A stretch of 64,000 nt of DNA from an uncultured Ruminiclostridium sp. Lineage in GTDB: Bacteria; Bacillota; Clostridia; Oscillospirales; Ruminococcaceae. The stretch's first letter is position 1. Every line of letters begins with the position of its first letter. This document shows, in pieces, positions 44,962-61,085 of the stretch. The position numbers and the translations under genes were made by a program. The DNA lies in the NCBI GenBank assembly GCA_905235805.1, contig CAJOMV010000016.1:1-64000 (forward strand). Direction: 5' to 3'. The notes below the pieces were generated by a model, which was given only the letters and a program-made list of their open reading frames with translations, was not told where the DNA came from and did not search any database.

Positions 44962-45969
44962 TCATATTTCAAGCTCTGAAAACTCCTCCGCTTTCTTGTC
45001 GGTCACCTTCGCAGCGATCACCGCCGTCATTGCGTCATAGCCCGCCTTGCCGCTGTCTGCGGGCTCAGCCGTGCCGGAAGCGCCTCCCTCGCGCTCCTCC
45101 TCCGCTTTCAGGTGCTCGGCGTACAGCTTCACAAGCGCCTCTATCATCGACTTGTAATCCTTGCCTCCGTCCTCTGCCCGGAGGCGCTCCCAGTTCATTG
45201 CGTACCACTCCATGCTGCCGCGGCGGTTGTTGTATTTTGCTTCGTACCGCTCGGTGCTGTACTTTGTGGAGCGCTCCGCAACTCCCTTCAGCAGCCGCTC
45301 GACGTTTATGCCGTTGTCGCCGTCCTCACGGAAATAGCTGTACCGGAGCACCGTGGCGATATCGTCCGCCATAGCCAGCGCGGTGTGGTAATCCATCATT
45401 TTCTGTTCCTCATACGGACACTGGACCCTTCCCTTGACCTGTGAGTAAGCCACTTCGCCGGTATCGGGGTCTATGGTGAACATATCGTAGTCCAGCGCGC
45501 AGGGTGCGCACCACTCGCCGCCCTCCCACCGGGAATAGCGGTCTATCTGCTGTTCAAGTGCCTGTCGGAGAGGGATCCCTTCTTCGAGAGACGTCCGTAT
45601 ATATCCGACAAACTCATCGAGCCCGCCCTCGGCTATCGGGACTTCCAGATACTTCCCCGATTTCTCCATTTCTACATGGGACATTATGATATCATGGAAC
45701 TTACTGCTGTATTCCTCGTCCGGGAGCTGCCCCAGCATAGTTATCGGCTGCTGCAGCTTATGCGCCGCCGACACGACATACATGGCTTCGAGCTCCGGGT
45801 CTATCGACAGGTCGTATTCCGCAGCCGCCATGAGTGAGTTCGCGCCCCTCACCTCGCTGTACGAGAACGCCGCCTGCAAAGCCATACCGAAATTCCCGCC
45901 GCTGCTGTCTGTGCGCGCAGCCGGGGTGTAGCCTGTGTTCAATGATGTGTTGAGTGTTACCGCGTCCAT
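44962..45969 (-). CDS. Uncharacterised protein, paralogue 3 of sigma-28 operon
   Basis: FGMALQAAFSYSEVRGANS, SAAHKLQ, LRYSYFREDGDN, YSTERYE; SD GGGAGGAAAC. Confidence 0.8.
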   Translation of the reverse strand: MDAVTLNTSLNTGYTPAARTDSSGGNFGMALQAAFSYSEVRGANSLMAAAEYDLSIDPELEAMYVVSAAHKLQQPITMLGQLPDEEYSSKFHDIIMSHVEMEKSGKYLEVPIAEGGLDEFVGYIRTSLEEGIPLRQALEQQIDRYSRWEGGEWCAPCALDYDMFTIDPDTGEVAYSQVKGRVQCPYEEQKMMDYHTALAMADDIATVLRYSYFREDGDNGINVERLLKGVAERSTKYSTERYEAKYNNRRGSMEWYAMNWERLRAEDGGKDYKSMIEALVKLYAEHLKAEEEREGGASGTAEPADSGKAGYDAMTAVIAAKVTDKKAEEFSELEI

Positions 45970-45980
45970 GTTTCCTCCCG

Positions 45981-46955
45981 TCATACCGCCATTTCCGTTA
46001 TCCCGTCCGTGATGTTCATCGACAGTCTCGCGGCAATGCCGTCCGCTGTCAGAGGGGACTCTTCGATATTGTCCGGCGTTTCGTCCTCCCGCAGGTCAAG
46101 CCCCTCATCAACAAGCCCGCAGTGCTTATCTATCATATCGAGCAGGGTGTCCAGCGCGTCCTCGGCTTTTCTCTCCAGCATTTCAAAATAACTCTTCCAG
46201 GCGTCATTCTCATGTGCCTCGATCTCCGCGTCGTTCAGCGGAATAAACCGGTCGGTATTGTAGTTCATCTGCTTTATCTCGCCGAGTACGGCGTTGACTG
46301 CTGCCGGGTCATCGCTGTCCTGACGGAAGTATGTGTATCGCATGAAGGTAGCAAGGTCATCGGCTAACGCCAGTGTCGCGGTGATATCGAGGTCATGCTC
46401 CGCGGGTGTTGCGCCGCAGTATACCTGTCCCCGGCGCTGCCTTGTGGTAACGTGCTCGATATCGCCGGTCTCGGTATTGACCCACATCGAGTCACAGATG
46501 TTGATATCCACGAATTTCCCCACATGACCGGACGTGTATCTGCGGGACTGCTCCAGAAGCGCGTCCTTCAGCGACACACCGTTGCGCTGCGCCTCCGAGA
46601 GTCTGTCAAGCAGCTCCGGCAGCTCGTTCATGCCGACCGGGACATTCACATATTTGTCATCCGTGTAGAATTCCCGCTTATCGCCCGAAAGGTCGAGCTT
46701 CTCCTCCGCCTCCCAGTACGCGTCCACGCCCATAGCCTGACGGGTAGAGCGCGGGAGATGATATTGATGCGCGGAGACGTGGACATACATGCTCCTCAGG
46801 TCGGTGTCGCCGAGAGAGCCTACCGCCTTTTCTATGCCCTTCGGCGCGTACAGGCTCTGCAGGGCAATGCCGAAATCGGCTGTTTCTTTTGCCGGTGTTG
46901 TTCTGCGGTTTGCTGTAATATTCTGCGTTGTGCTGTTGATCGTTATTGTGTTCAT
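45981..46955 (-). CDS. Uncharacterised protein, paralogue 2 of sigma-28 operon
   Basis: FGIALQSLYAPKG, VSAHQYHL, MRYTYFRQDSDDPA, YNTDRF. Confidence 0.8.
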   Translation of the reverse strand: MNTITINSTTQNITANRRTTPAKETADFGIALQSLYAPKGIEKAVGSLGDTDLRSMYVHVSAHQYHLPRSTRQAMGVDAYWEAEEKLDLSGDKREFYTDDKYVNVPVGMNELPELLDRLSEAQRNGVSLKDALLEQSRRYTSGHVGKFVDINICDSMWVNTETGDIEHVTTRQRRGQVYCGATPAEHDLDITATLALADDLATFMRYTYFRQDSDDPAAVNAVLGEIKQMNYNTDRFIPLNDAEIEAHENDAWKSYFEMLERKAEDALDTLLDMIDKHCGLVDEGLDLREDETPDNIEESPLTADGIAARLSMNITDGITEMAV

Positions 46956-46966
46956 ATTTCCTCCCG

Positions 46967-47929
46967 TTATATTGCAATTTCAGCCAGCTCCGTCTCATTT
47001 GTTTTACTTACAGCTATCTTTGCTGCCATAGCCGCGACGGTGAGCGACGAGCTGCCAAAATCATCGTTCTCCGTTTCACGCTGCTGTTCAGCCTTGAAAT
47101 GGCGGTCAAGAAGTTCGAGAAGTGAATCAACCATATCATTACGAGGTTCATCATCAGAACCAAGCTTTTCCTGCATCATAACATACCATTCGTCCGAATG
47201 TATTACCGAGTCGTCCCACATCGGATCAAAGCGTTCAGTATTATAACAGTTTGAACGTTCACATATCCCGTTGATAAGTGCCTGAACCTTTGCGGGATCA
47301 TCTGATTTCTCTTTAAAATAAGTATATCTCATTACCGTGGTAAGGTCATCTGCTATCGCCAAAGACGTAAGTATATCCATATTACTGTCGGCTACAGAAC
47401 CATAAGCATTACGGTTTTTTGTATGTGCGACCTCGACCATACCGGTATCAGGGTCAATAGTGAAGAACTCACCGTGATTTAGGTGTGTAACATCGCCATA
47501 ACTGTCGAAATGTTTTTGCAGTACATCTCTGAGCGAATCGCCGTTTGCAAGTCCGTTTTGCAGCTCTTCGACAAATTCACTGAATTTCCCCGGGTCGATA
47601 CGCACGTTGATACAGTCACCCTTCTGAGAAAGTTCAAGATATTTTTCTCTTTTTTCATCAAATGCTTTATCGTATTCGTTCATCGATGCAATGCCAGATT
47701 GACCTGTCACAAGTTGCAGCTTATGCGCGTTTGACACAACATACATATCCTCAAGCTCGTCGTCGAGCATTTCCAAAGCATTTGACGATATGGCATTAAC
47801 GCCCCGCACCTCGCTGTACGAGAACGCACTCTGCAAAGCTATGCCGAAATCGGCTGAGCTGCCCGGCTGTTCGGTTCTGCGGCTTAACGCGATACTCTGT
47901 GCGGTACCGTTTATCATAACAGTATTCAT
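46967..47929 (-). CDS. Uncharacterised protein, paralogue 1 of sigma-28 operon
   Basis: FGIALQSAFSYSEVRGVNAI, VSNAHKLQ, MRYTYFKEKSDDPA, YNTERF; start 47929 with SD GGAGGG. Confidence 0.8.
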   Translation of the reverse strand: MNTVMINGTAQSIALSRRTEQPGSSADFGIALQSAFSYSEVRGVNAISSNALEMLDDELEDMYVVSNAHKLQLVTGQSGIASMNEYDKAFDEKREKYLELSQKGDCINVRIDPGKFSEFVEELQNGLANGDSLRDVLQKHFDSYGDVTHLNHGEFFTIDPDTGMVEVAHTKNRNAYGSVADSNMDILTSLAIADDLTTVMRYTYFKEKSDDPAKVQALINGICERSNCYNTERFDPMWDDSVIHSDEWYVMMQEKLGSDDEPRNDMVDSLLELLDRHFKAEQQRETENDDFGSSSLTVAAMAAKIAVSKTNETELAEIAI

Positions 47930-47970
47930 ATTTACCCTCCCTTTTTCTGTATAAATACCTATTATATAAT

Positions 47971-47997
47971 ATATCGGCAGAAATCGTGAAAACTTTA
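47971..47997 (-). promoter_or_regulatory. Sigma-28 type promoter TAAAGTTT-N11-GCCGATAT
   Basis: AAACTTTA 47990-47997 and ATATCGGC 47971-47978 on + strand, 11-nt spacer. Confidence 0.8.
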
Positions 47998-48024
47998 GCG
48001 TTTTCGCAAAATTTACAGTCAACT

Positions 48025-52727: not shown

Positions 52728-55700
52728 TTATTTGCGGGATTCTTCGTATAGATCCATCACCTCCTTACCCGATAAACGGTCATTCTCAAGCAGCTCGCGG
52801 GCAATTCGGTCGAGCAGCGCTCTGTTTGCCGCAAGCAGCTCTTCCGCGCGTCGCATCTGCTCCGCCAGTATGCCGTTCACCGCGGTATTGACCTTTACCG
52901 CGAGCTCTCCCTGTATCTCTCTCTCCGACAGTGCCGCAAGCCCGAAGTCATCGCGCATCGCGTATCTGCATACCATATCGGAAGCCAGCTGCGTCGCGGC
53001 AGCGATATCGGAGGCGATGCTGGAGGAGCAGCCGTTCAAGGCTCCGAGCAGGGCGCGTTCCCCGGCTCTCCCGCCGAGATACATACATATCTTATCGTAC
53101 ATTCCCTCTGCCGTCATGGTGCCGGGACATTCCTTTTCCTCTTCCTGAACGTAACCACCGAACGAATCGCGCGCGATTATCGTCACATAGCTGGGTCTGC
53201 CGCCTGTCAGCAGACTGATGACGGTATGCCCGGCTTCGTGGTAGGCTGTACGCTCACGCTGAACATCGTCACGTTTCTTTTCCGAACCGGCATTGTAGCA
53301 CTCGAACGCCTCGTCGAAAAGCTCATCGCTTACGGGCAGGCTGTTTCTGCGGAGAGCCATGCGTCTCGCAAGAGCGCAGAATTTCCCGAGATGCGCAAGG
53401 CTCATACCGACTGAACGCGCAGCGATGTTTTTCAGCATTTCACCGCTGACGCCGAATTTTGTGCTGTCGGCGACTGCAAGCTCAAGGAACCTCTCGCGCT
53501 CAGCCCTCTTCGGCAGTCCGACGGTGACGGATTTGTCAAATCTTCTGATAAATGCCGGGTCAAGCTTGTTCGTAGGGAAGTTTGTCGCAGCAACCACATA
53601 GACCGGTCTGTCCGGGTCATTGCCAAAGCCGTTCATCTCTGTCAGCAGCGCTGTGAGCACTTCCTCGCGGACATGAGTGAACTCCGAGCCGGTACGGCTT
53701 CTTGCTATACATTCGACCTCGTCGATGAACAGCACACAGGGTGCGTATTTTCGCGCTTTTCGGAAGATCTCGTGTACGCTCTCGGAGCTGTCGCCCACAT
53801 ATCTTTTCAGGAAGCGGTTGCCCTCCGTGGCGATGAACGGTACTCCCGACTCGCTTGCGAGAGCCTTTGCGAGCATGGTCTTTCCGGTGCCGGGAGGACC
53901 GTTCATCAGTATCCCGCTGAACAGCTCCGGGTCGAGTCCCGAGCCGCCGGGGTCCTTCAGGAACGTCACCGCCTGCCGCAGCTCTTCCTTGACCTCTTCA
54001 CCGCCGATAACGTCGTCGAACCTCACGTCCGGCATGGTCACGGGACCCAGGAAGATATCCATATCCTCCGCCTGCATAGCTGTACGGAGCTTTAGCTCTG
54101 TCATTCGTATCTCCGCCGATCTGCCCTCGGTGTCGATGCTGCATTCGATACTGAAGCAAAGCTCCTTGCCGGAACAGAACAGCTTTCTCACGGAGATGCC
54201 GATATCCTTGCCGAACAGCTCCGCTATCTCGCCCTTCGGAGGCACGTCAACAGTAACGTTTATGCTGTCGAGCGCGAATACCTCTTCCTCATTCCTGCCG
54301 CAGGTGAGGGAATAGGTGCTCTTAGCGAAGAATTCACCCGCGGCGCCTATGACCGCTCTTGCGCCCGAGCTGCCAGCGGTGCTGAAGATGAGTGCTCTGA
54401 ACACGCTGTCATCTGCGTTTACGCTGCATCTCATCTGTCCCGAAAGCTCCGACATCTTCTCCATATATCTTGTGCTCGCTATGGATAGGAGAGACTGCGG
54501 GTCGAGCATACGGAACATCACTATATTCCCCGTTGACAGGCGGGAGATGAGCTCCGGCGGGAACAGCTTCATGCGCATCGCGCCGTCGCTGTCCTTCTCC
54601 ACCGCGTCGAGCAGTACGCTCTTCGGCAGCTCCGACAGGTCGGGTATGCTTTCGTTCTCGTACAGGCTTCGTCCGGCATTTGTGGTGAATATCATCGTGA
54701 GGCCGCCGCACGGCACGCCGCGGTAATATCCGCTGTCAAGCACGGGCAGGAATGACTCGAGGGTGCTCGGTCCCGCCTTCTCTATCTCATCGAAGATCAC
54801 CATGCCCTCCGGCTCGTTCTCCGCGTAGGACATCAGTGCCTTCGCATCGAAGCCCTCGCTCATGTTGTACAGCAGAGGAGAGATGCCGAGGACGTCCGCC
54901 GCCAGCTTGGCGAGCATGGTCTTTCCCACTCCCGGAGCCCCCGCGAACACGAAGGTCATGGGAGTGCCGGGACGGGCGTTATTGCTGCTGTACGGTTCTA
55001 TGAGCCTGTCGAGCTTGCTGCGGAAATATCCGTCGGCAAAGCTCTTTACTGCGTTGTCCTGTCCGAGTATCCGCTTCGAGAGCTCGGCACGCATACGCTC
55101 GGCGCTGTCAGCGAGCTCCGCTACCTGCTTTCTGCCGTTCTCGTCGAGCTTTCTTATCACCTCTTCGACAGTGGTGGTCTGCTGTTCCTGCGCAGTGTCG
55201 TCATCGTCCGTGTATTCTTCGGTCTCATCGACGTATTCATCATCACAGTAATACACGTCCTCGTCGTCGAAGCAATCATCATAATCGTCGTATACTATAT
55301 TACGGATACCGCATTTGAAGCGATCCGAGCCGAACACCTCCCGCATATCCGCTGTGGGTGTACGCAGCACGGCGTTGATGAAGCTGCTGAGGCTGACCGA
55401 GGAACGGTGCTGCTCCGCGGATTCGACCTCCGCAGCCTCCAGAGCCGCCGCAAGGTATTCCCCGGACCGCTCCGCCGTCAGCTGTCCTTCGTATGTCTCC
55501 TCGAAGTGACGGCGTACCGCGTTAAGATCGAGGCGCTCCTCGTAGCTCATTATGATGAACGGCGCGAGCTCGATATCATGCTCCTCCGCAAACTCGGGAG
55601 AGTCCGTACAGAACTCGCAGAGCACCGCTATGAACTTCTCTGGCAGAAAGCCGCAGCCTGTGCCGCGGCTTTTTACCTTTGTACGGAATAATGTATATTC

Positions 55701-55739
55701 CAGAAGATCGCTTTTCTTTAATGTCTTTGTCTCAGTCAT
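52728..55739 (-). CDS. Soluble chimeric AAA+ protease: Clp-like AAA, FtsH-like AAA, M41 zinc peptidase
   Basis: GAPGVGKT + VIFDEIEKAG; GPPGTGKT + LFIDEVECIA + FIRRFDK; HEAGH..SSIASDIAAATQLASDMV; no TM; start 55739 with SD GGAGGA. Confidence 0.85.
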   Translation of the reverse strand: MTETKTLKKSDLLEYTLFRTKVKSRGTGCGFLPEKFIAVLCEFCTDSPEFAEEHDIELAPFIIMSYEERLDLNAVRRHFEETYEGQLTAERSGEYLAAALEAAEVESAEQHRSSVSLSSFINAVLRTPTADMREVFGSDRFKCGIRNIVYDDYDDCFDDEDVYYCDDEYVDETEEYTDDDDTAQEQQTTTVEEVIRKLDENGRKQVAELADSAERMRAELSKRILGQDNAVKSFADGYFRSKLDRLIEPYSSNNARPGTPMTFVFAGAPGVGKTMLAKLAADVLGISPLLYNMSEGFDAKALMSYAENEPEGMVIFDEIEKAGPSTLESFLPVLDSGYYRGVPCGGLTMIFTTNAGRSLYENESIPDLSELPKSVLLDAVEKDSDGAMRMKLFPPELISRLSTGNIVMFRMLDPQSLLSIASTRYMEKMSELSGQMRCSVNADDSVFRALIFSTAGSSGARAVIGAAGEFFAKSTYSLTCGRNEEEVFALDSINVTVDVPPKGEIAELFGKDIGISVRKLFCSGKELCFSIECSIDTEGRSAEIRMTELKLRTAMQAEDMDIFLGPVTMPDVRFDDVIGGEEVKEELRQAVTFLKDPGGSGLDPELFSGILMNGPPGTGKTMLAKALASESGVPFIATEGNRFLKRYVGDSSESVHEIFRKARKYAPCVLFIDEVECIARSRTGSEFTHVREEVLTALLTEMNGFGNDPDRPVYVVAATNFPTNKLDPAFIRRFDKSVTVGLPKRAERERFLELAVADSTKFGVSGEMLKNIAARSVGMSLAHLGKFCALARRMALRRNSLPVSDELFDEAFECYNAGSEKKRDDVQRERTAYHEAGHTVISLLTGGRPSYVTIIARDSFGGYVQEEEKECPGTMTAEGMYDKICMYLGGRAGERALLGALNGCSSSIASDIAAATQLASDMVCRYAMRDDFGLAALSEREIQGELAVKVNTAVNGILAEQMRRAEELLAANRALLDRIARELLENDRLSGKEVMDLYEESRK

Positions 55740-56130
55740 GGTCAACTTCCTCCTTTTTGTTATTGTCTGCCATTGCTTCTTCCTCCGTCTGCACGGCACG
55801 GATAAGGTATTTATTCGCCAGCTCCGCCATGCCCTCGTCGGAGAGAAATCTTCCGAGCCTGCTCATCGCTGCCGGGCTGCCCTTTTCTGCCGCGATGAAC
55901 CACATATCCGCCGCAAGGTACTCATCTCCTCTTGCGAAGAGCAGATCTCCCAGAGCAAGGTATGCGCCTGTGTGACCGCGGCGGGCGGCTTTGCGGTAGA
56001 AACGCTCAGCCTGCCACATACCGTTGTCCTCCTTATGCTCGGTCTCCCATATCACGCCCATTCTGTACAGCGCCTCGGGGTCGCCCTGTTTTGCACTCTC
56101 ATAGAGCGCCGAATATTCATTGATGTTCAT
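55732..56130 (-). CDS. Sel1-like (TPR-related) repeat protein
   Basis: AKQGDPEALYRMGVIWE..AERFYRKAARRGHTGAYLALGDLL..AAEKGSPAAMSRLGRFL. Confidence 0.8.
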   Translation of the reverse strand: MNINEYSALYESAKQGDPEALYRMGVIWETEHKEDNGMWQAERFYRKAARRGHTGAYLALGDLLFARGDEYLAADMWFIAAEKGSPAAMSRLGRFLSDEGMAELANKYLIRAVQTEEEAMADNNKKEEVDHD

Positions 56131-56384: not shown

Positions 56385-58019
56385 TCAATCATCGGTCGTG
56401 AACAGCAGACCGTTCAGGAACGCGTAGTCCATCTCTTCCTCGCTTAGCTCACCGTCCTCGTCATTTTCATCAACGTCCTCGGTCACTTCTGTTAACCAGC
56501 TGTTGAAGAAGTTGATCAGAGTATGTATGCCGAACACGGTGCCTACCTTTCCCGATTTGCCGCCCGCGCTTTCCGGCGCTTCATTCTCCTGCGCCGGAGC
56601 ACAGCGTTTCAGGAACTCATAGCTGTCGATATCGGGGAGCTCTGTGAAGAATACCGTATTTCCGTCGATGAACACTGCCTCCTTATAGTCGCGTTCCTTG
56701 CGAAGCTCACGGAGCATATCGGGTCTGACGAAATTATGCGGTCTTCCGTCCTCATTGATGAAGGTCTCTCCGCAGAGGTCGCAGATGTAGTTCACCAGAT
56801 CCTTGTCGGAGCTTTGCAGGAACAGTGTGTTACGACAGTTGCCGATTATTGTGCCGGCATGATCAACGTATGTCGTTTCGAGCTGATTTTTGGACTGACA
56901 TACCAGAAACCAGCGCATACAGCGGCTTCGGGAAGCCGATATCTTAGACTTCATATCGTTTATGTGCAGATTGCAGAATTCATCACAGATGAAGTTCACT
57001 CTGCACGGCGGCTCGCTCCTTCCCATATACGTCCTGCCATACTCCTCGATAAGGCGGGTGTAGAATGTATCCGTAAGAAGTCCCGAGACCATATCGTAAG
57101 CCGAGGTCTCATCGGGTATGATGAGGAACACGCAGGTCGGTTCCTTGTAGATATCGGTCACCTTGAAGCTCGACACCGACAGCATTTCCGACAGGGAAGG
57201 CTCCGAAGCGAAGGGCTTGATGAGCGAATGAACAAAGCCGAGTATCGAGCCTGTCATTTTGTCCGCCGGATTGAGCGCAACATTCTCCAATGCGGCGAAA
57301 TTTTCCGGGCTTAGCTTCTCACGGAAGAAATCCAGACTGTTTTCCGCGCATTCAGCTATCTTACGCAGCGAGTGCATATTTGCGAACTCCGCCAGCGACA
57401 GCATATTCACCCCGTCGGGCTTGCCGAACTCGATACCCATAATGAATATCATCTCAATTATAGCCGACAGATAAGATACCGCCTGGTCAGCCCATATAGG
57501 CTCGTCATCGTGCTCGAATTTCGTCCCGAGTGCCGCCAGCAGTCTGGATATCTCCGTTGCCGCTTTTCGCTTCTGCCCGCTGCGGTACAGCGTGAACGGG
57601 TGCTCCAGAATGCTGAAGCAATCCTTGTCGAAGGTCCTGAAATCGAGGTACACCGTATGTATGCCCTTCTTTTCCAGAAATCCCCGAAGAGCCGGGTTGG
57701 CGGACAGCTCCCCCTTGACATCGGTGACGAACGCGGATTCACCCGCGCCCGTCGTCATCGCTATCAGAGGAGCTATAACGCATCTCGATTTCTTGCACCC
57801 GGTCTCACCGAAGATGAGAGTGTTCTCGGTGAGATCGTTGACGTATACCTCCGAACCCCTTTTTAACAGCGGGATACCGCTTGCGGGGAATTTGCCCGCA
57901 GCCGACAGCTCCACCGCCCTGTACTTCCTCATGATGTCATCTGCCGACGCGGCTTCGGCACCTGCCGGATAGGCATACGGTCCCCAGTCGGAGTAGTAAT
58001 CATAGTTGTTGTTTCTCAT
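56385..58019 (-). CDS. Soluble VirD4/TraG-like coupling ATPase homologue
   Basis: LIFGETGCKKSRCVIAPLI, FVTDVKGEL, VNFICDEFCNL, LVCQSKNQLETTYVDHAGTIIGNCRNTLFLQSSDKD. Confidence 0.75.
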   Translation of the reverse strand: MRNNNYDYYSDWGPYAYPAGAEAASADDIMRKYRAVELSAAGKFPASGIPLLKRGSEVYVNDLTENTLIFGETGCKKSRCVIAPLIAMTTGAGESAFVTDVKGELSANPALRGFLEKKGIHTVYLDFRTFDKDCFSILEHPFTLYRSGQKRKAATEISRLLAALGTKFEHDDEPIWADQAVSYLSAIIEMIFIMGIEFGKPDGVNMLSLAEFANMHSLRKIAECAENSLDFFREKLSPENFAALENVALNPADKMTGSILGFVHSLIKPFASEPSLSEMLSVSSFKVTDIYKEPTCVFLIIPDETSAYDMVSGLLTDTFYTRLIEEYGRTYMGRSEPPCRVNFICDEFCNLHINDMKSKISASRSRCMRWFLVCQSKNQLETTYVDHAGTIIGNCRNTLFLQSSDKDLVNYICDLCGETFINEDGRPHNFVRPDMLRELRKERDYKEAVFIDGNTVFFTELPDIDSYEFLKRCAPAQENEAPESAGGKSGKVGTVFGIHTLINFFNSWLTEVTEDVDENDEDGELSEEEMDYAFLNGLLFTTDD

Positions 58020-58048: not shown

Positions 58049-58762
58049 TTATGGGCTGATGCCTTCATTCTCTTGTATGAGCTCTTTGTCCGCGATATGT
58101 GCGAATTCAAGCGCTGTTTTCGCATCGGTCACATAAGGGAGCGAATACTCGCTCTTCAGATAAGCCGACACGTCCTGCGGTCTTATCACACCGACCGACG
58201 ACAGATCCAGCATCTCATCGCACATATCATTTATCATCATTATGTTCAGCAGCGGATCCATCCTCGGAGCTCGAAGCATAGCGGCGATAAGCTTTGCTGC
58301 TTCCTGCGTGGCACACCTCCGTTCAATGTAGCAGACAAGCGCCGCAGTATCTGTGAGAGTGCAGTCCTCCGTAAACGTTCCTCGCATATATTTTCTTGCC
58401 GCGCTGAACAGCTTTGCCGAGTCTGCTCTCGAATGGTTCCCCACCGTGAATATGTAATCTGCGCGGTGCTGCATATCGTGGAAGAATTTCATTGCTATCG
58501 TCAGATACTCATCTTTCTCATGCCCTATCCATTCCGACAGGTCAATTACCATAGTGATACGTTTGCCCTTTACCGCGGACGAGAGCTGCATTGCGCGCAG
58601 CATGGTCTTCAGCTCATTGAAATCCTTAAAGAGCGGTACATACTGCATGTGGTAATGCAGGATCTCCTGTCCCACGGCGGCAATTCTGTCGGCAGCGTAC
58701 TCATTGTCGGTCGCGCCGGTGATAAGTATTGTGAAAGCGTTCATTTTTTTGATTTTTGTCAT
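58049..58762 (-). CDS. Uncharacterised protein, first gene of the AAA/M41-TraG-like operon
   Basis: ORF; ITMVIDLSEW resembles a Walker-B-like strand but no Walker A. Confidence 0.7.
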   Translation of the reverse strand: MTKIKKMNAFTILITGATDNEYAADRIAAVGQEILHYHMQYVPLFKDFNELKTMLRAMQLSSAVKGKRITMVIDLSEWIGHEKDEYLTIAMKFFHDMQHRADYIFTVGNHSRADSAKLFSAARKYMRGTFTEDCTLTDTAALVCYIERRCATQEAAKLIAAMLRAPRMDPLLNIMMINDMCDEMLDLSSVGVIRPQDVSAYLKSEYSLPYVTDAKTALEFAHIADKELIQENEGISP

Positions 58763-59409: not shown

Positions 59410-60096
59410 CTATAGCTCAATGATATCGTCATACAGACAGAAATACTTCTCTTCGATGACATTGTCCTCATGGAAATGCCCGAAAAACCATGCCCGGAAC
59501 TCGGTGCTTTCAGCGACCCGCTGTAAATACTGCCGCAGCTCGAGCTCGCTGTCCGAGATCAGATAATATCCCATATCGTCAACTATCTCACGGGGACCTG
59601 TGTGTGTCAGGATATAATCGACTTTAAAGCCGTGCGCCTCAAGGTTCTGCCAGCCCTCGGCATATTCCTCCCTGTTCGGGAGCTCCTCGGGAAACCATGA
59701 GCGCCCTTTTACCCGGTGTATTCTGTCGATGCTGTAAGCTCCCCCGAACGTGAAGAAGGTCGTCCCGCCGATATCAAAAAACTGTCCGCGCATGAGGTGT
59801 ATGATATCGTCATAGATGAAATGCACCTTTCCGCCGTTCCATTCACTGACAGGATATTCTCCGAGCATGTCGAAATTCTCGTGATTGCCGTCTATCCACA
59901 GCACAGTAACGGGAAGGCTGCGCAGAATGCGGCGGGTCTCGGCTTCCTCCGCCGCGGTGAAGCCGCACACTCCCACATCTCCGCATATTATCAGGAAGTC
60001 GTCCTTCGAGAACTCGTCCTCTCTGCCCTCAAAGAAGCGCTCCGTCTTACCGATATCCAAAGTTCCGTGTGTGTCACCCGTAACCCAAAATCTCAA
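59410..60096 (-). CDS. Metallophosphoesterase (probable TTG start)
   Basis: VTGDTHG, ICGDVGV, GNHENF, HTGP, GHFH; TTG preceded by GGGAGGTGACGGA. Confidence 0.85.
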   Translation of the reverse strand: MRFWVTGDTHGTLDIGKTERFFEGREDEFSKDDFLIICGDVGVCGFTAAEEAETRRILRSLPVTVLWIDGNHENFDMLGEYPVSEWNGGKVHFIYDDIIHLMRGQFFDIGGTTFFTFGGAYSIDRIHRVKGRSWFPEELPNREEYAEGWQNLEAHGFKVDYILTHTGPREIVDDMGYYLISDSELELRQYLQRVAESTEFRAWFFGHFHEDNVIEEKYFCLYDDIIEL

Positions 60097-60125
60097 TCCG
60101 TCACCTCCCGGCTCATGCCGCTCGC

Positions 60126-60830
60126 TTAAACATAGAATTCCTCCATAGTATCGAGGCACAGGCAGGCAAGTCTGCCGCCGTCATACCATGCCCCGCAGTC
60201 TATGAAGATGTTCCCGCTGCTGTGTATTATGGAATTCTCACCGTTGATAAGCTCTGTGGGTGTATGCCCGGCGACGACGTATATGCTCTCGTCCGCGAAA
60301 TACCTGAAAGCAGGGTCGGGTCTGTGCCACACAAGGTCATTCACCGTATAATCGGACAGCTTCTTGTCGGGACTGAAATGATCAAAGCCTGAGTGTACCA
60401 TTATGAAGGTCTTGTCTCCGACATCGACAGCCTCGCACAGCAGAAATTCCGACATATAATCAAGGACATCTATCCTGTCGGGATATGACAGCTTTGCGAA
60501 GCCCTCTATGGTGTATGCCCCGCCGTTCACCAGCCAATCCTCCATTGCCGCTTCCACAGCGTTTTCCGTTTCTTCGCCGTTCTCACTGCCGAACATCATA
60601 TCGAGAACGTCCAGCGCCATAAGCTCATGGTTGCCGATTATGGGGTGTACATTCGGGCGCTTCATCATATCGAGCAGCACCTCGACAGGCTTTTCCCCGC
60701 GGTCAACCACATCTCCGAGGATATAGAGCTCATCGTCGTCCGAGAACTCTATGAGCTCCAGCATTTTCATATATTTATCATACATTCCGTGTATATCTGA
60801 CATTGCGTAGATCATTGCAGTTCCCCACAC
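60126..60830 (-). CDS. Serine/threonine-phosphatase-like metallophosphoesterase
   Basis: MSDIHGMYD, LGDVVDRGEKP, GNHELMA, GHTPTE. Confidence 0.88.
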   Translation of the reverse strand: MWGTAMIYAMSDIHGMYDKYMKMLELIEFSDDDELYILGDVVDRGEKPVEVLLDMMKRPNVHPIIGNHELMALDVLDMMFGSENGEETENAVEAAMEDWLVNGGAYTIEGFAKLSYPDRIDVLDYMSEFLLCEAVDVGDKTFIMVHSGFDHFSPDKKLSDYTVNDLVWHRPDPAFRYFADESIYVVAGHTPTELINGENSIIHSSGNIFIDCGAWYDGGRLACLCLDTMEEFYV

Positions 60831-60950
60831 AAAAACTATGTATCTTGCTATAATTATAGCTTATTTATTTATAAAAGTCAAGGAAATACATAATCCCGGG
60901 GAGCTGTCAGTGTTCTGTAAAGTCAAGATATTCCCAAGGGCAGCGAGACA

Positions 60951-60991
60951 GAAAAAATACCGCCTCAGGTAAGACCCCGAGACGGTATTGG
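60951..60991 (-). terminator. Terminator downstream of tRNA-Arg
   Basis: AATACCGCCTC..GAGACGGTATT, U-run on - strand. Confidence 0.7.
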
Positions 60992-61008
60992 AACCGGCGG
61001 CTCGCCGG

Positions 61009-61085
61009 TGGCGCGCCACAAGGGATTCGAACCCCTGACCCCTTGGTTCGTAGCCAAGTACTCTATCCAGCTGAGCTAGTGGCGC
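61009..61085 (-). tRNA. tRNA-Arg(ACG), CCA encoded
   Basis: GCGCCACTAGCTCAGCTGGATAGAGTACTTGGCTACGAACCAAGGGGTCAGGGGTTCGAATCCCTTGTGGCGCGCCA. Confidence 0.95.

Follow-up and report, generated by a model that had tools for sequence, protein, structure and literature searches.

The protease gene and its operon

The window analysed here, a 64,000-nucleotide stretch of DNA from an uncultured Ruminiclostridium sp., carries a gene for a double-AAA M41 metalloprotease of 1003 residues on its minus strand (52728..55739), on which all of the protein and operon features described below also lie. The open reading frame is intact, it is preceded by a strong Shine-Dalgarno sequence (AAGGAGG) positioned 9 nt 5' of the ATG, and its start and the stop of the gene upstream overlap by 8 nt. 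Matches to three Pfam domains, AAA_2, AAA and Peptidase_M41, each exceed the curated cut-offs. These occur in the order that a preliminary description of the sequence had proposed, which is Clp-type AAA, FtsH-type AAA and M41 peptidase, with the first AAA detected by the domain scan as AAA_2. The motifs quoted there (GAPGVGKT, FDEIEKA, GPPGTGKT, FIDEVECIA, RRFDK, HEAGH and SSSIASDIAAATQLASDMV, together with an acidic stretch) are all present in the translation of 55739..52728.

The N-terminal region belongs to no family recognised by the domain scan or the profile search. A weak Clp_N match was seen in one relative alone (L039, E 0.068), and the profile search led to one ClpB chain with an E of 0.55. 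Between this region and AAA1 is an acidic linker spanning residues about 151–181 (55197..55289), in which 18 of 30 residues are acidic. An acidic stretch preceding AAA1 recurs in relatives (16/30 in L033 and 23/30 in L042) and is extreme in L034:8138-12118, where D and E account for 28 of 30 residues.

AAA1 comprises residues 262–402 (54534..54956) and was assigned to the Clp/Cdc48-type AAA_2 group by Pfam (E 2.6e-14) and by alignment. When compared to the D2 domain of Clp proteins, it keeps the Walker A motif, the Walker B motif (DEIEKA), sensor 1 (TTN), the arginine finger and a sensor-2-like arginine. Within the family, Walker A, Walker B, sensor 1, the arginine finger and Arg461 are invariant in 12 of 12 members. 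AAA1 is followed by a short inter-AAA linker (54057..54212) in which, as alignments show, a receiver-like domain of approximately 130 residues found in relatives is missing. AAA2 (residues 610–741; 53517..53912) is of the FtsH type (Pfam E 3.1e-44), with a YVG pore motif and the RRF arginines. The Peptidase_M41 domain (residues 825–996; 52752..53267; Pfam E 3e-27) contains HEAGH and the distal Asp911, and the zinc ligands H834, H838 and D911 as well as the catalytic E835 are invariant in all 12 aligned members. FtsH provides both the best fold matches and the best whole-half profile match of this half of the protein. Domain scans found no SAVED or CARF domain inside the protease. An AlphaFold model of the whole protein, built from a three-row alignment, is of low confidence, with a mean pLDDT of 51; FtsH-like folds are recognisable in it, and it is uninformative on the rings.

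The protease is the last gene of an operon which, like the small gene that overlaps it, the preliminary description had passed over in silence. The order is a 237-residue protein, a VirD4-like ATPase, a TPR/Sel1-like protein and the protease. The TPR/Sel1-like protein (132 residues; 55732..56130) is encoded by the gene that overlaps the protease start, and its homologues are found at the corresponding place in L037 and L187; from the sequence, the two genes are probably translationally coupled. The VirD4/TraG-like P-loop ATPase (544 residues; 56385..58019) matches T4SS-DNA_transf with an E of 2.9e-24 and is 50% identical to its partner in L037. It has no obvious transmembrane anchor, and the members of its family share an altered Walker A motif, GxTGxKK[ST]. 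The conserved 237-residue protein (58049..58762), which matches nothing in Pfam or the PDB, adjoins the VirD4-like gene at each of the six loci compared, where identity is 31–37%.

This arrangement is conserved in other genomes. Genome G038 (L037) has the same gene set as the window with a ClpP gene inserted; in G1104 this set, again with ClpP, is divided between the ends of two contigs (L188 then L187). Three further loci, L189, L190 and L191, have the core of 237-residue protein, VirD4-like ATPase and ClpP but no protease; L190 is a second locus in the window's own genome. In the window, no ClpP remnant is present between the VirD4-like and TPR genes. The pairing of a VirD4-like motor with ClpP (L037 and L188–L191) is unusual in itself. 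At L191, a 1044-residue protein with SLOG-like and STAND/NACHT-like matches is encoded directly downstream of the core (L191:3426-6560), and the VirD4-like protein (L191:7293-9272) has, by eye only, the look of a C-terminal RNA polymerase alpha C-terminal (HhH-like) domain.

Relationship to FtsH and other AAA+ proteins

Eleven proteins that contain both halves, the one in the window and ten others, were found among 80 relatives searched, and about 27 relatives with the identical domain order are distributed patchily in the Clostridia, an Acetatifactor MAG (L044) and a Christensenella MAG (L045) being among their sources. The best homologues are 43–46% identical to the window protein over the FtsH half and 29–37% over the Clp half. 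By searches with an AAA1-specific profile, 13 of 394 genomes from the order (about 3%) have a member, as do 2 more of the 391 class genomes and 1 more of the 300 phylum genomes that were sampled. Within the genus, 9 of 71 genomes carry a member, the window's included.

The existence of homologues with the same architecture excludes chance as the origin of the fusion. A frameshift is ruled out as well, by the intact reading frame, by the relatives and by a split version in a Lachnospiraceae MAG (L046, 9107-13258), where AAA1 (475 residues) and a receiver-like-AAA2-M41 protein (879 residues) are encoded by adjacent reading frames. The adjacency of these split halves suggests that they act together as one functional unit. 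Larger forms exist too: L042:478-5142 and L193:7591-12258 encode relatives of 1554–1555 residues that group together in the tree, and in the L042 protein a protein-kinase domain was detected at the N-terminus (Pkinase E 3.2e-13), together with a long acidic stretch.

The AAA2-M41 half is like that of FtsH, m-AAA and i-AAA proteases in its YVG pore motif, its RRF arginines and its HEXXH motif with distal Asp. The remainder of the protein differs. FtsH has an N-terminal transmembrane anchor, whereas the window protease was claimed at the outset to have no transmembrane segment, and this holds: its highest 19-residue hydropathy window scores 1.15, compared to 3.1 for the anchor of the genome's own FtsH. 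Hydropathy shows no transmembrane helix, and the proposed cytosolic location is also supported. FtsH has an extracellular or periplasmic domain, whereas the N-terminal 206 residues of the window protein give no FtsH_ext match at E values up to 10. Conversely, FtsH, m-AAA and i-AAA proteases have neither the extra Clp-type AAA nor the receiver-like domain of the relatives. The canonical FtsH of the host genome is encoded by a separate gene of 658 residues on another contig (C23).

In a maximum likelihood tree of the FtsH half only, canonical FtsH (n = 25) forms its own clade on a long branch with 100/100 support and the double-AAA family lies outside. The window copy clusters with L037 and L187 (93/76), the two relatives that have its operon, on a branch of its own with a length of 1.33. 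In addition, the protein scores 299 bits with the NCBIfam FtsH equivalog model, for which the cut-off is 600, so the concern that an automated FtsH label would hide this architecture was well founded. The protein is named by no curated family model, and NCBIfam contains none that fits it. Because the anchor, the extracellular domain, the curated score and the position in the tree all separate it from FtsH, the protein appears by sequence to be an AAA+ M41 protease by mechanism and not an FtsH by membership, in a distinct and apparently undescribed family. Literature searches with incomplete full-text coverage, on FtsH/M41 with ClpB, CARF or YbjN and on soluble homologues, gave no description of this architecture, and a review of FtsH evolution (PMC9020784) contains no passage about two-AAA versions.

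Like the D2 domains of ClpA, ClpB and ClpC and like ClpX, AAA1 is an AAA_2 module with a Clp-type Walker B, sensor 1 and arginine finger, but unlike these Clp/Hsp100 proteins the window protease has its own fused peptidase and lacks pore loop 1 in AAA1. The ClpP-docking tripeptide [LIVM]G[FLY] was absent between sensor 1 and the arginine finger in 20 of 20 members examined, which is consistent with M41, and not ClpP, as the peptidase. As this tripeptide was not found, the ClpP encoded in the sister operons is probably the partner of a different ATPase, perhaps of the VirD4-like protein. Cdc48/p97 is similar in having two AAA modules per chain, and AAA2 gives a strong profile match to this group; the window protease differs in that its two AAAs come from different AAA+ branches and that a peptidase is attached.

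Losses in the window copy and the proposed mechanism

The window copy has lost two elements. First, the pore loop 1 segment of AAA1, approximately 18 residues, is deleted. The same segment is deleted in L045, shortened in L041 and present in most relatives, and most members have an aromatic residue at the pore-loop position. Second, the inter-AAA linker is 50 residues long, compared to 163–207 residues in 19 other members measured, and from this difference it follows that the window copy has lost the receiver-like middle domain, which is present in the other full-length relatives measured and has an Asp that is invariant in the alignment. Most of the best PDB matches of the middle-domain profile are response-regulator receivers, each individually weak. 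The middle-domain alignment shows neither the acidic pair nor the Lys that are typical of receivers able to be phosphorylated, so this domain is probably a pseudo-receiver. An AlphaFold model of the middle domain from L044 has a pLDDT of 44. Owing to its long branch and the two lost elements, the window copy could, as an individual protein, be partly decayed.

These losses bear on the original proposal of a two-ring AAA+ metalloprotease. For the window copy this term has to be qualified: its AAA1 keeps the ATPase residues but not pore loop 1, and the receiver-like domain is missing. With the pore loop lost and the ATPase residues kept, two rings here probably means one threading ring, of the FtsH type, and one ATP-dependent platform ring.

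The reading that we consider probable is that the protein belongs to a distinct AAA+/M41 family and acts in the cytosol as a zinc protease driven by ATP, in which an FtsH-type ring threads the substrate, a Clp-type ring is stacked upon it and recognition is fed by partners. Here, the chains would form a soluble hexamer with the Clp-type ring on top of the FtsH-type ring. The FtsH-type ring, with its intact YVG motif, would thread substrate into the fused M41 chamber, and the AAA1 ring would control assembly, entry or ATP-dependent gating. Most relatives would also be able to grip the substrate with AAA1. AAA1 of the window copy is predicted to bind and hydrolyse ATP, but because the pore-loop segment with which it would grip is gone it would most likely act as an ATP-controlled platform. 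Where FtsH has its membrane anchor and its periplasmic domain, this protein has the N-terminal region and the acidic linker. Substrates would be selected by small partners, the TPR/Sel1 protein in this operon and YbjN in other branches; both are candidate adaptors, as judged by the position of their genes.

The textbook architectures of bacterial energy-dependent proteases are ClpXP/ClpAP/ClpCP, HslUV, Lon, FtsH and the proteasome. If the proposal is correct, a soluble enzyme whose Clp-type ring sits above an FtsH-type one, with the zinc peptidase fused to them, would be an additional one. It would allow one to ask what role the membrane has for FtsH and how a foreign second ring affects unfolding. 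The family offers a natural deletion series, with and without the receiver-like domain, with and without pore loop 1, and fused or split, which makes the architecture testable.

Neighbouring genes and alternative roles

The neighbours of the protease in other branches are non-random. YbjN-like genes adjoin it in 10 of about 27 loci; at L039 and L192 the YbjN gene follows the protease instead of preceding it, a point against an adaptor role. In two loci (L040 and L158) a CARF-PDDEXK nuclease gene is immediately upstream, and RyR, TrkA-like and TIR genes occur at L036, L038 and L159, the TrkA-like ones encoding membrane proteins. In the genomes that carry the family these genes are rare, and 6 of 11 YbjN matches (Pfam; 0–2 per genome) and 3 of 12 RyR genes (in G063, G068 and G1107) lie beside the protease or within about 5 kb of it, as 2 of the 6 CARF-PDDEXK genes in 21 such genomes lie near it, these being counts for categories picked after the neighbours had been seen and from genomes some of which are related. 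A random gene would be expected near the protease in roughly half a percent of cases (an estimate, from about 13.5 kb of 2.4 Mb).

Such gene surroundings point to a role that is regulated and may be linked to defence, which is plausible from gene context, and the CARF, TIR/RyR and YbjN genes hint at a regulated function in gut Clostridia that is unexplored. A tentative alternative to the partner-fed protease is an inducible immunity or conflict module, in which the protease would be switched on, by a nucleotide that nearby CARF, TIR/RyR or SLOG-STAND proteins detect or through the receiver-like domain, to degrade a phage or host protein. The CARF-PDDEXK and RyR genes with their TIR and TrkA-like companions are in line with this, as are the SLOG/STAND-like protein beside the ClpP-containing core at L191, the patchy distribution of the family and the protein-kinase domain of one relative. 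A precedent for what CARF and TIR neighbours might suggest is CalpL (CRISPR-associated Lon-SAVED), a protease that, according to PMC11417357, an immune second messenger activates; it is unrelated to the window protease. Against this, the window operon contains no recognised defence gene, the neighbours vary by branch and were chosen after inspection, and no phage or plasmid carrier is present among the matches listed. The window protease matched no specific defence-protein model in PADLOC-DB, where its matches reflect generic AAA similarity. The more elaborate form of this alternative is doubtful: a switchable protease with Clp and FtsH motors, a receiver-like sensor between them and TPR or YbjN adaptors, deployed in immune or conflict modules, some of which would have a VirD4-like motor and ClpP.

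It is unlikely that the protein has a general function in stress or quality control, in which it would support FtsH or ClpCP as a soluble reserve protease with no dedicated partners. The FtsH catalytic machinery is intact and a canonical FtsH is kept in the genome, so a paralogous accessory role is conceivable, but presence in about 3% of the order's genomes and in 9 of 71 of the genus is unlike that of housekeeping proteases, and dedicated partner genes are conserved.

We likewise regard as improbable that the protein is a degenerating family relic or the cargo of a decayed conjugative element, a reading prompted by three losses (of the receiver-like domain, of pore loop 1 in AAA1 and of ClpP from the operon) and by the adjacent VirD4-like gene. 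The long branch and the want of any ClpP remnant would fit a relic, but the reading frame is full length, all catalytic residues are kept, the ribosome-binding site is strong and the gene start overlaps its neighbour. As for conjugative cargo, no relaxase or VirB4 match was found among those neighbours of VirD4-like copies that were scanned, which are a part of the total, and the VirD4-like family, with its altered GxTGxKK Walker A motif, mostly travels with ClpP.

Two other affiliations can be dismissed. Membership of the IetA/TRIP13 defence ATPases was rejected, as IetA scores 113 bits compared to 299 for FtsH, and an origin in phages or plasmids is unsupported, since the matches listed from phage, plasmid and viral-contig collections include no family member and only Clp-like proteins. 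Among the matches listed from genome contigs and viral contigs, most were Clp ATPases.

Elsewhere in the window, at 44962-48022, three tandem paralogues of 324–351 residues, which are 26–36% identical, lie beside the suf operon; the two that were scanned have no NCBIfam match. Just upstream of the protease operon, 59410-61085 holds two consecutive metallophosphoesterase genes and a tRNA-Arg (ACG), and relatives of the second metallophosphoesterase are also found near L039 and L189.
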